NCBI GenBank assembly: GCA_016764875.1 | Contig: JAESQX010000168.1 | Location: 1 to 42,142, forward strand | DNA length: 42,142 nt | Reading direction: 5' to 3' | Source of the DNA: Gammaproteobacteria bacterium | Lineage (GTDB): Bacteria > Pseudomonadota > Gammaproteobacteria > Pseudomonadales > Pseudohongiellaceae | Part shown: positions 8,786 through 12,036 of the stretch, one piece after another | How positions within the stretch are numbered: the first letter of the stretch is position 1 | Layout: each line of letters begins with the position of its first letter | Translations under genes and position numbers: made by a program | Notes under the pieces: generated by a model | The model's database searches: none | What the model was told of the DNA's origin: nothing | Seen by the model: only the letters and a program-made list of their open reading frames with translations

Positions 8786-10114
8786 TTAATCTGATTTACT
8801 TTCAGTTGCCGTGGGTTGTTCACTCTGGATGACTTCTTCGTAGTCCACCTTGTTCTCTGCTACCTGGGCCTGCTCGAGTATCACATCAAAACCCTGATCT
8901 TCCATTACCGTCGATTCTACGGTTGCCAGTTGCTCCTGATTGCCATAGTACCAGTTCACGACCTCGTCGGGAGATTCGTAGGTAGAAGCAATTTCTTCTA
9001 CGGCCTCCCTTACTTTGGCGGCATCTGCTTTCAACCCCTGCTGCTCAATCACCTCACTCAGGATCAATCCGGTTACGACACGTCGATTCGCCTGGTCAGT
9101 GAACATATTGTCTGGCAACAGGCTTGGGTCGATATTCTGCCCACCGCCCATTCTCTGTAGGGCTTGATCTCTAATACTTTTCACCTCGGAGTCAATTAGC
9201 ACCTGCGGTATTGAAACTTCACACAGCTCAATCAAAGCATCAACGACCTTGTTCTTGAGCTTGCTACGACTTGCGCTCTTCATTTCCCTTTCCATATTTT
9301 GGGAAACTTCCACGCGAAAGGCCTCTTCGCCCCCTTCTTCGATGCCAAAACCGGCAAAGAATGCTTCATTCAGCTCTGGTTTAACCTGCTCCGAAACCTT
9401 ATTGATGGTTATTTCAAATTCGACTTCCTTCCCTGCCAGCTCTGCATTGTGATATTTCTCAGGAAATGTCAAAGACAAGGTAACGGACTCACCGGCCTTT
9501 TTACCCAGCAATCCAGATTCAAATCCCGGAATCATGCGTTCGGAACCAAGTACCAGATTGCTGCCTTTAGCCTCGCCTCCCTGAAATGCTTCTCCGTCAC
9601 TCTTGCCAAGATAATCAATATTGAGCATGTCGCCGTTACCGGTTTCACGATCCACCTCTTCCCAGGTTTGTCGTTGCTCGCGCAAGGTCTCGACCATTTT
9701 ATCTATATTCTTCTCATCTACATCTGCTACCAGTTTCTCCACCTTGATGCTAGAAAAATCCGGTAACTGAATTTCCGGATAAACTTCAAACACAGCGGTG
9801 AACTGAAGGTCCTGCCCCTCTTCCAATTGAGTCGCTTCAATAGAAGGCTGTCCTGCAGGCCGGATTTTTTCCTGGTTCAAGGCTTCATAAAAGGAATTGT
9901 TCATTAACTCCCCTACAACCTCTTGCCGCACTCCTTCACCAAATCGATTTTTAATCACCTTCATTGGAATTTTGCCCTTGCGAAAGCCATTCATCTTTAC
10001 GTTATGGGCGGCCTCCTGCAAACGAGCCAATACAGCGGAGTCCACTTCCTGGAAAGGAATTGCTATGGTCATTTTTCTTTCCAGTGCAGTAGTGGTTTCT
10101 ACGGAAATATCCAT
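8786..10114 (-). CDS. tig: Trigger factor, ribosome-associated chaperone
   Basis: Trigger factor binds ribosomal protein L23 at the peptide exit and shields nascent chains. The 442-residue protein has the N-terminal ribosome-binding domain with the signature region GFRKGKIPMKVIKNRFG (about residues 43-59), an FKBP-type prolyl isomerase domain (about 150-245) and a helical C-terminal chaperone domain. Its C-terminus is acidic and slightly longer than that of E. coli TF (432 residues). The ribosome site GAGG lies seven bases before the ATG. It is the first gene of the block and is divergent from mobA. Confidence 0.97.
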   Translation of the reverse strand: MDISVETTTALERKMTIAIPFQEVDSAVLARLQEAAHNVKMNGFRKGKIPMKVIKNRFGEGVRQEVVGELMNNSFYEALNQEKIRPAGQPSIEATQLEEGQDLQFTAVFEVYPEIQLPDFSSIKVEKLVADVDEKNIDKMVETLREQRQTWEEVDRETGNGDMLNIDYLGKSDGEAFQGGEAKGSNLVLGSERMIPGFESGLLGKKAGESVTLSLTFPEKYHNAELAGKEVEFEITINKVSEQVKPELNEAFFAGFGIEEGGEEAFRVEVSQNMEREMKSASRSKLKNKVVDALIELCEVSIPQVLIDSEVKSIRDQALQRMGGGQNIDPSLLPDNMFTDQANRRVVTGLILSEVIEQQGLKADAAKVREAVEEIASTYESPDEVVNWYYGNQEQLATVESTVMEDQGFDVILEQAQVAENKVDYEEVIQSEQPTATESKSD

Positions 10115-10481: not shown

Positions 10482-11150
10482 TTGGACAAACCCCGCAATA
10501 AAGTCAGGATCTGTGGCGTCATAGTCGCCGGGGGCCAGGCATCCAGGATGGGTTATCAGGACAAGCCTCTGGTGCCTCTGGCGCAAAAGCCACTGATTGA
10601 GTATGTGATTGCTGCCGCCTCCCCTCAGGTAGGCCAGCTGATCATAAGCGTCAATCGGAATCTGGATAAATATACCCGCTACTCTCTACCGCTGGTGAGA
10701 GATGTTTCAGCTGCCGGCGCGGGCCCCCTGGTTGGCATCTACAGCGCCATGAAGTGGTACTCGAATCAGACTGTTCAGGCGGACTACCTAGCCTGCTTCC
10801 CCGCCGATGTCCCCATGTTTCCGGCGAACCTTGTTGACACTCTTTCTACGGCCATTGCGGCGACTGATTCTTCGCTCCACAACAGCGTCAGGGAAGTGGC
10901 CTGGTGCCAGACCGACACGCAAATACAACCGTTGTTCTCACTGTGGTCCTTTAAGCTGTTGGCAGCTCTTGAACAGTCAATCCATGCAGGAGTGTGTGGC
11001 CCCAGCCTTTTCTTTCAGAATCATCCCTCGCAAAAAGTTGTACTGCCGCCGCAGGATCCCGGCATGTTTCATAATATCAACACCCTTGAAGAACTGGCGC
11101 AGGCCGAGAAGTTTATTGCCAAGCGCACCGCTGATTTCAATCATAATTAA
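10482..11150 (+). CDS. mobA: Molybdenum cofactor guanylyltransferase MobA
   Basis: MobA transfers GMP from GTP to molybdopterin, making the guanine-dinucleotide cofactor used by DMSO-reductase-family enzymes. The 222-residue protein opens with the nucleotide-binding loop VIVAGGQASRMGYQDKPL (Lys28) and carries the metal-binding segment ACFPADVPMFPANL, both MobA hallmarks. The start is a TTG at 10482, supported by AAGGTG seven bases upstream and by the normal N-terminus it gives. It stands alone, divergent from tig. No moa or moe genes are in the window, so its user enzymes lie elsewhere. Confidence 0.93.
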   Translation: MDKPRNKVRICGVIVAGGQASRMGYQDKPLVPLAQKPLIEYVIAAASPQVGQLIISVNRNLDKYTRYSLPLVRDVSAAGAGPLVGIYSAMKWYSNQTVQADYLACFPADVPMFPANLVDTLSTAIAATDSSLHNSVREVAWCQTDTQIQPLFSLWSFKLLAALEQSIHAGVCGPSLFFQNHPSQKVVLPPQDPGMFHNINTLEELAQAEKFIAKRTADFNHN

Positions 11151-11232
11151 CAACAACAACCCGGGGTAAACGGGCCACTTTCTTCAGCAGCAAAATCAAA
11201 ACCCGGTTCAATAAAGAAAATGAATCAAAATA

Positions 11233-11248
11233 TGGCACATAAATTGCG
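11233..11248 (+). promoter_or_regulatory. Near-consensus sigma-54 (RpoN) promoter
   Basis: TGGCAC (11233-11238), five bases, then TTGC (11244-11247) match the RpoN consensus TGGCAC-N5-TTGC at every conserved base. The invariant GG and GC are exactly 10 bases apart. The predicted start is near 11259, giving a leader of about 90 nt before the small gene at 11348. No activator gene is adjacent. Confidence 0.65.
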
Positions 11249-11347
11249 CTCTTTTATTCGTTTTCCAGTTAAATTATCGTGCGTTTTACTCGCTAGCCTA
11301 AGGTTGCACCCTGGACTTGTTTCAGACCTAGTTATTAGGGCCGCCTT

Positions 11348-11572
11348 ATGGCTAGTGTAGACAAATTTCTGATAAATAAAATTATGCCCAGCACTCGAAT
11401 TCATGACCAGACCATTACTGAAGCGCCCGCGAGAACCGAGCGCTTATTCAGCCGTGACGAATTGTGGTATTTCCGCACTCGCGAAAATGATCGGGTAGGG
11501 CCGTTTCGTTACCGTTCGGAGGCCCAGAGCAATCTTGACAAATTTCTGAACGAATTAAGAGATAAGCTGTAG
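11348..11572 (+). CDS. Small conserved-looking hypothetical protein (74 aa)
   Basis: The product is a 74-residue, soluble, charged protein with no signal peptide or membrane segment. The segment RLFSRDELWYFRTRENDRVGPFRYRSEAQ, at about residues 32-60, resembles small gammaproteobacterial proteins grouped, I believe, as DUF6316, with the pattern WYFxTRE followed by GPFR; that family name is from memory. No function is known to me. AGGG seven bases before the ATG supports translation. It is preceded by a sigma-54-type promoter and converges with msrB, so it is probably a single-gene unit. Confidence 0.75.
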   Translation: MASVDKFLINKIMPSTRIHDQTITEAPARTERLFSRDELWYFRTRENDRVGPFRYRSEAQSNLDKFLNELRDKL

Positions 11573-11623
11573 CCCTATCTTCCCAAGCATAACAAAATCA
11601 TCTCTAAAGACAGTGGGGGATAA

Positions 11624-12022
11624 TTATTCCTCCGGTTTATCAAGCTGTAGCGACGCCGAATTTATACAATATCGTAGCCCTGTTTCCGTTGGCCCGTCCT
11701 GAAAAACATGGCCCAGGTGTGAATCACATTGACTGCACACCACTTCAGTTCTATACATTCCCTGGGACTTGTCCCCATGCTCCGTTACATTTTCCACCGC
11801 TAATGGTTGATAAAAACTTGGCCAACCTGAGCCGGAATCATATATAGTTTGCGAAGAAAACAAGGGAGCCGCACAAGCGACACAACGGTAAATTCCAGTC
11901 TCTTTACAATCCCAATATTTCCCGCTAAATGCCTGTTCAGTGCCCTTGCCCCGACAAACCCGGTACTGCTCAGCGTTAAGCTGGCTGGCCCAATCCTGAT
12001 TACTCTTGACTGTTTTAGCCAT
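11624..12022 (-). CDS. msrB: Peptide-methionine (R)-S-oxide reductase MsrB
   Basis: MsrB repairs oxidised methionine by reducing the R-sulfoxide in proteins. The 132-residue product has the structural zinc cysteines Cys47/Cys50 (RCVAC) and Cys96/Cys99 (CSQCDSHLGHVF) and the catalytic Cys119 in GLRYCINSASL. The substrate-pocket motif GSGWPSF is present. I place the start at ATG 12022, because the upstream in-frame GTG at 12031 overlaps the AAGGAG ribosome site (12031-12036), which is eight bases before the ATG. The gene is divergent from alaA and convergent with the small gene at 11348. Confidence 0.97.
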   Translation of the reverse strand: MAKTVKSNQDWASQLNAEQYRVCRGKGTEQAFSGKYWDCKETGIYRCVACAAPLFSSQTIYDSGSGWPSFYQPLAVENVTEHGDKSQGMYRTEVVCSQCDSHLGHVFQDGPTETGLRYCINSASLQLDKPEE

Positions 12023-12030
12023 AATTGCCA

Positions 12031-12036
12031 CTCCTT
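12031..12036 (-). promoter_or_regulatory. msrB: msrB ribosome binding site that fixes the start
   Basis: AAGGAG on the minus strand lies eight bases before ATG 12022. The competing in-frame GTG at 12029-12031 shares its last base, so it cannot be the start used with this site. Confidence 0.8.

Follow-up and report, generated by a model that had tools for sequence, protein, structure and literature searches.

What does a sigma-54-type promoter serve when the only gene behind it encodes a very small protein? The question is raised by a stretch of 42,142 nucleotides (contig JAESQX010000168.1, assembly GCA_016764875.1, Gammaproteobacteria bacterium), referred to here as the window, for which a sequence-only reading had proposed a sigma-54 promoter driving a lone 74-residue protein of unknown function. 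Comparison with related genomes points to another main product: the conserved unit is probably a sigma-54-driven gene for a small structured RNA that acts as a regulatory RNA, with the protein, a member of the family DUF6316, in a secondary place.

A Conserved Sigma-54 Promoter

The full motif TGGCACATAAATTGC is present at 11233-11247 on the plus strand, with 10 bases separating GG and GC, and it is intergenic as had been described, between the end of the mobA-like gene at 11150 and the open reading frame (ORF), 115 bp before the ATG at 11348. The promoter features are the following:

11233..11248, plus strand: sigma-54 -24/-12 element TGGCACATAAATTGCG; TGGCA[CT]N5TTGC[GC] is kept at a fixed distance in 34 of 34 relatives
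11249..11258, plus strand: region -10 to -1; CTNTT is conserved in relatives, with T at column 19 in 34 of 34
11275..11280, plus strand: TATCGT, a TAnnnT element that relatives keep 42 bp beyond the -24 T (T in 33, A in 30 and the last T in 32 of 34)

By the usual spacing from the -12 element, transcription would start at about 11259. The motif by itself is weak evidence, because at least one TGGCAC-N5-TTGC match also turns up in 14 of 100 dinucleotide-shuffled versions of the window and the counts in the window's own genome are near those of the controls (4 matches of TGGCAYN5TTGCG versus 2 for the reversed control, and 2 other occurrences of the strict form with W after TTGC versus 3). A covariance model of the downstream hairpin alone, with no promoter (R1), was searched in 95 related genomes; it matches 34, and TGGCA[C/T]-N5-TTGC stands 52-53 bp upstream of the hairpin model start in all 34, which places the motif far beyond chance. 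The site is at the same 52-53 bp in 17 of 17 genomes found without promoter information. Among the 34 sites TGGCA and TTGC are invariant; the sixth base is mostly T (28 sites) and otherwise C (6), and in 33 the TTGC is followed by G. The promoter pattern does not recur anywhere else in the RNA loci (208,704 bases, both strands). The gene rpoN was found in 56 of 57 genomes searched and is encoded in that of the window. Judged by this conservation, the sigma-54 promoter at 11233 is genuine and conserved, and this part of the earlier proposal holds.

The TAnnnT element (columns 42-47) and CTNTT (columns 16-20) could together form a sigma-70-type promoter with 17-bp spacing and a start at the hairpin base. 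A consensus promoter scan of the window did not report TATCGT as a -10 element. The distant genome L248 has a sigma-54-like site, TGGCATGCATATTGCGCTCTATTC, with the same CTCTATTC tail as the hairpin-RNA promoters; as this tail is common to the unrelated L248, promoters of this type may share it generally, and the sigma-70 reading of CTNTT-N17-TAnnnT is a possible one at most. Another hairpin lies between the mobA stop and the promoter (11155-11179, minus strand in the scan listing); its possible role is to terminate mobA transcripts and insulate the RNA promoter.

A Hairpin Selected as RNA

The product that follows the promoter is recognized by its structure:

11286..11365, plus strand: conserved RNA hairpin of 80 nt (R1 match), core ACTCGC...GTAGACA at 11288-11363
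about 11289-11306 (5' arm) and about 11341-11361 (3' arm), plus strand: the two arms of the hairpin

The hairpin starts about 27 nt past the predicted transcription start. A long inverted repeat (ACTCGyyAGy...rCTrrCGGAGACC) occurs downstream of the site in 17 of 17 DUF6316 loci that have it, and in their aligned repeats 15 of 18 pairs have changed on both sides with pairing kept. Members of alignment A1 were picked for carrying the promoter, and covariation is given beside sets not so picked. Across 33 of the 34 sequences (L116 fell below the E cut), 95.5% of pair cells are standard and 15 of 18 pairs are changed on both sides, as reached by 1 of 500 shuffles; the covariation score is reached by 0 of 500, and slid versions are at most 49.3% paired.

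Further loci were fetched from named genomes by a pattern of promoter plus 5' arm, with no 3' arm. Among the 80 listed of the 99 stretches obtained, 56 are confirmed by scoring at least 61 bits with a model of promoter plus hairpin (R2), and 24 are not this RNA; the fetched loci partly repeat the first genome set, and the two together comprise 60 distinct cores. The stems of the 56 confirmed loci (among the 80 listed of 99) contain 660 Watson-Crick, 55 G-U, 3 A-C and 4 other cells. The occurrence of G-U pairs without A-C pairs indicates selection on the sense-strand RNA, in the promoter's orientation, and not on DNA.

Over the whole RNA family, the hairpin measures 80-115 nt and consists of a base stem of 16-18 bp and a variable head, which folds into further hairpins in the genera g1, g5, and g6 and is mostly A-rich in g2, g3, and g8. 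A small inner hairpin with a CACA loop is found in g2 and g8 (11 of 13 copies, CCACA in 10), followed by an A-rich strand; the loop (L099-L115) keeps CACA while the sequence of its stem changes, and is a candidate pairing or protein-binding loop. Among loci without DUF6316, 10 of 20 loops hold the motif AANAANAA (200 shuffle sets average 4.1 and reach at most 10), against 0 of 40 loops of the remaining loci; in this count three mobA-plus-RNA loci lacking DUF6316 were scored as "without" despite loops of the other type, and L207, L190 (its stretch stops short downstream) and similar rows as "with"; for loops so A-rich the excess is modest. No conserved unpaired seed common to all genera was found.

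Downstream of the hairpin, 17 of 18 loci that lack DUF6316 have more C than G. By eye no U-tract terminator can be made out there, and the scan gave none on the plus strand of the window; a C-rich tail without U-tract suggests Rho-dependent ending. The ends of the RNA and its half-life, like its transcription, are predictions at this stage.

A search of Rfam with positions 11100-11620 of the window and seven loci gave no usable match to the hairpin; STnc410 (L043, 27.1 bits, cut-off 50) and ftsZ-DE (16.9 bits, cut-off 72.2) were taken as chance matches. In a literature search covering titles and the starts of abstracts, mostly of journals other than subscription ones, the hairpin RNA is described nowhere.

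The copy in the window is among the more divergent. Its fold has a z of -3.4 versus -6.1 to -7.7 for four other copies folded, GTAGACA replaces GGAGACC, and no IHF-like sites are recognizable upstream of it in the window; on these grounds the window copy may be decaying or rewired.

Distribution and Gene Neighborhood

All R1 matches fall inside a single GTDB-style family, f1 (34 of 59 genomes, and 0 of 36 outside it), with one sense-strand match in each genome; five weak extra matches are the same palindrome on the opposite strand. Six genera carry the RNA: g1, to which the window belongs, g2, g3, g5, g6, and g8. Family f1 is probably Pseudohongiellaceae, as a confirmed RNA locus (L145) lies in a Pseudohongiella sp. 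bin and NCBI places Pseudohongiella within Pseudohongiellaceae. Searches with R2 gave strong matches in f1 only (7 genomes) among 390 genomes of the order, and in the window's genome only among 369 genomes of the class. The weak matches elsewhere (two in the order, four in the class, 23-27 bits) amount by eye to promoter-like sequence at most and were rejected as instances of the RNA outside f1. Bins labeled Klebsiella pneumoniae (L188, L201) and SAR86 cluster (L168, L171, L212) carry the f1 hairpin RNA as well; all five have tig, mobA, DUF6316 or msrB alongside, so these bins look mislabeled.

The locus is framed by three genes:

8786..10114, minus strand: tig (trigger factor), the conserved divergent neighbor of the RNA locus and the tblastn query used in relatives
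10482..11150, plus strand: mobA-like gene (TIGR02665, 155.2 bits, cut-off 151.85) between tig and the RNA
11624..12031, minus strand: msrB, convergent, closing the locus

The first of them we take to be tig from its sequence. The RNA is divergent from tig wherever sequence extends far enough. A mobA-like gene usually lies between the two in three of the six RNA genera only (g1, g5, g6), and is absent from that place in G033 (L151).

The DUF6316 Protein and Its Link to the RNA

The protein-coding part of the locus has to be redrawn:

11348..11383, plus strand: N-terminal part of the 74-residue ORF, probably not translated; it overlaps the hairpin 3' arm
11384..11572, plus strand: DUF6316 protein of 62 residues (from Met13 of the 74-residue ORF), most likely the true start by homologue alignment

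The ATG at 11348 lies inside the hairpin 3' arm and 29 homologues (of 33 listed) align from the Met at 11384, so that the gene is 11384-11572; the 74-residue delimitation does not stand. A ribosome site had been reported before the ORF, and none that is good can be seen by eye at either start. The 62-residue start is 151 bp from the -24 element (146-149 in g6 relatives). "Unknown function" remains an apt description: the ORF belongs to Pfam DUF6316 (PF19837; 47.2 bits for 74 residues and 48.0 for 62, cut-off 28.5), and it is a lone gene in the window, as convergent msrB comes next. The predicted fold comprises three strands and a helix (mean pLDDT 73, pTM 0.50); the model has no significant match in the PDB (best E 0.9), the sequence search gave a sole match at E 0.042, and DUF6316 is named nowhere in the literature searched (mostly other than subscription journals).

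DUF6316 was sought in the 95 related genomes and the upstream regions of 63 places were examined. Within f1, TGGCA[CT]N5TTGC lies within 300 bp of the start codon at sixteen places and at 548 bp at a seventeenth (L042); outside f1, L020 has a one-mismatch site upstream of DUF6316, and the hairpin is absent. The 59 f1 genomes divide into 17 with both RNA and DUF6316, 17 with the RNA only, 16 with DUF6316 only and 9 with neither. The 17 RNA genomes that lack DUF6316 (E 0.001) belong to g2, g3, and g8. The 16 DUF6316-only genomes show neither the hairpin nor, up to 320 bp from the start codon, a site with one mismatch or none; 16 of the 33 DUF6316-bearing f1 members thus lack site and hairpin at the equivalent place, an outcome that the earlier reading had itself named as refuting its proposal and that applies here to the protein. 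A hidden hairpin upstream of DUF6316 at 17 RNA-less loci was also considered (no filters) and rejected: the best match has 11.6 bits (E 0.31, L022) and, lying 1 kb from the DUF6316 match, is not at the expected place.

It follows from this cross-table that the promoter belongs to the RNA gene and not to DUF6316; the two share an address, not a fate. Sigma-54 driving DUF6316 as primary function is rejected on the same 59 genomes, which leave DUF6316 no larger part than that of a read-through passenger of the RNA gene. Of the earlier proposal the promoter survives, and the protein as its conserved product does not. The functional hint that the promoter was thought to offer for the protein is accordingly slight, the structured RNA to which the promoter belongs having been overlooked.

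In g4 (L022, L026, L027, L030, L033-L037), an RNA-less DUF6316 lies beside tig with another conserved upstream block, GGGATA...GGTCTACTA, which is perhaps the ordinary promoter of DUF6316 itself.

Upstream Sites and Candidate Activators

Motif counts at the RNA promoters refer to those of the 60 distinct cores with enough upstream sequence and no N (57 or 59). In an EM search of 57 sequences, ATCTnnTTGTTT-like sites cluster at two positions, 69 and 124 bp upstream of the -24 T, with a log-likelihood of 169.5 (39.3 for the shuffled set), and exact matches to the IHF consensus occur in 11 of 57 sequences versus 1.9 in shuffles. The two positioned sites in relatives look IHF-like. A search for enhancer sites had been suggested beforehand; beyond these positioned sites in relatives, it yielded no such site in the window and no motif of a known activator. 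Sites for NtrC, GlrR, NifA, LuxO and QseF were not above shuffles at the RNA promoters, and CbrB subsites (TGTTAC/GTAACA) number 3 versus 4.8 expected, with 8 of 8 CrcZ-like promoters as positive control. The presence or absence of a CbrB-like regulator was rejected as an explanation: such a regulator is present in 95 of 95 genomes of the order, so its presence is not informative.

Comparison with Known Sigma-54-Dependent RNAs

Qrr RNAs of vibrios (LuxO/sigma-54) are sigma-54-driven and about 100 nt long. The hairpin RNA resembles them in its sigma-54 control and similar size, and differs in place, in having no Rfam match and in LuxO sites (TTGCAN3TGCAA), found in 2 of 59 sequences versus 1.8 expected.

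The CrcZ/CrcY/CrcX RNAs of pseudomonads (CbrB/sigma-54, decoys for Hfq-Crc) are likewise sigma-54-driven sRNAs with an IHF-like site, and A-rich AANAANAA is met in half of the stand-alone hairpin RNA copies. However, several such motifs per RNA are not seen (10 of the 20 loops lacking DUF6316 have one or more, and 0 of the 40 others), the RNA is one hairpin instead of about 400 nt, and the locus has no CbrB subsites and no CrcZ match. Membership in the CbrB/CrcZ system was rejected, the subsites being absent here and present at 8 of 8 CrcZ-like promoters.

Family f1 also has a separate CrcZ-like RNA beside a CbrB-like gene (L003, which is G000:C115 of the window's own genome, and L240-L246). 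The response regulator is presumably CbrB-like, by its sequence resemblance. At these 8 loci, a sigma-54 site and a AANAANAA-rich RNA follow the gene after 200-256 bp; TGTTAC at -120/-121 and GTAACA at -79/-80 are present in 8 of 8, IHF-like TTGWTT at -25 in 7 of 8, and a sub-threshold Rfam CrcZ match (26.8-38.9 bits, cut-off 95) in 7 of 8. As CbrAB is called exclusive to pseudomonads in the abstracts of two papers (PMC6296734, PMC8871633), a CbrB-CrcZ module beyond that group appears to deserve separate investigation.

GlmY is an enterobacterial sRNA controlled by QseF, IHF and sigma-54 with an overlapping sigma-70 promoter, according to passages of PMC6075780. The likeness lies in a structured small RNA, a sigma-54 promoter, IHF-like upstream sites and a possible overlapping sigma-70-type element. 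The differences are the lack of an Rfam match to GlmY/GlmZ, QseF sites (TGTN12ACA) in 2 of 59 sequences versus 2.6 expected, a place adjoining tig/mobA/msrB and not qseEGF, and a presumed sigma-70 start that would follow the sigma-54 start by about 28 nt.

The remaining point of comparison is PF19837 itself: the downstream 62-residue protein is a member, yet half of the RNA genomes are without DUF6316, which therefore does not define the system. The best reading of these sequence comparisons is a new RNA family of the sigma-54-dependent kind, wired much like GlmY or CrcZ and a member of neither.

Proposed Mode of Action and Alternatives

As we picture the RNA gene, RpoN together with an enhancer-binding protein would switch on the structured RNA, with the DNA bent at the pair of phased upstream IHF-like sites, 69 and 124 bp from the -24 element. 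The product would begin with some 27 nt of 5' sequence, followed by the hairpin of 80-115 nt, and would probably end in the C-rich, G-poor stretch. In g2, g3, and g8 the RNA would stand alone beside tig and act in trans, its mostly A-rich head suiting Hfq. A-rich sequence suits the distal face of this protein, whose gene was found in 55 of 57 genomes searched. The head is folded in g1, g5, and g6, and in most of these read-through into DUF6316 would make the RNA the leader of that mRNA.

A more elaborate version, which we regard as speculative, combines a two-tier promoter (inducible sigma-54 and basal sigma-70 from the hairpin base) with a family-specific RNA that was captured as DUF6316 leader in three genera, its A-rich Hfq-type head being swapped for folded hairpins, so that a trans-acting sRNA would have become a dual or cis leader at the same locus.

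The alternative that survives best, although we consider it unlikely, is that sigma-54 drives DUF6316 and the hairpin is a control element in its 5'-UTR, affecting stability or translation or resembling a riboswitch. In g6-type loci 15-18 nt separate the end of the hairpin match from a start codon preceded by a GAGG-type ribosome site, and 35 of the 56 confirmed loci (among the 80 listed of 99) have DUF6316 within 700 bp downstream; among the 21 where it is absent there, the stretches of L190 and L173 are too short to tell and L163 (G028 contig) has DUF6316 just further on. Against a cis leader, promoter and hairpin are kept in the 17 of 34 RNA genomes without DUF6316, the G028 ORF is 548 bp from the promoter, and mobA and the RNA are retained while DUF6316 is missing in L199, L160 and L161, the last of which extends 816 bp downstream.

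That the RNA merely insulates or terminates between tig/mobA and msrB, or is antisense to the msrB 3' end, seems improbable. Its fixed intergenic place and the C-rich tail seen in 17 of the 18 loci that lack DUF6316 would suit such a role, and msrB faces the RNA closely in a few genomes (L192, L198 and L199, with a convergent msrB match 164-188 bp after the -24 T and no DUF6316 between); however, the distance to msrB is far from constant, ranging from 164 bp to over 4 kb (L212, L166), no U-tract is found, and an insulator does not need a conserved sigma-54 promoter.

Very little weight attaches to a chance motif, with DUF6316 under another promoter: the shuffles that give the motif in 42 kb and the window's lack of recognizable upstream sites speak for it, but the fixed-distance site in 34 of 34 relatives refutes it there. 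A DNA element (cruciform, protein-binding palindrome or mobile repeat) could account for a long inverted repeat, but with 55 G-U versus 3 A-C pairs and a single copy per genome at a single locus it is hardly credible.

Significance

If the RNA-gene reading is correct, small ORFs behind conserved promoters call for caution, as they may be passengers of an RNA. The series of loci formed by RNA alone, RNA with a small-protein gene and the gene alone may help to understand how sRNA genes and mRNA leaders interconvert. Sigma-54 regulatory RNAs such as GlmY, CrcZ, and Qrr are central to cell-envelope, carbon and quorum circuits; another, unrelated one shared by six genera of a family with hardly any cultured members would be a target for metatranscriptomics and for work on the RpoN regulon.
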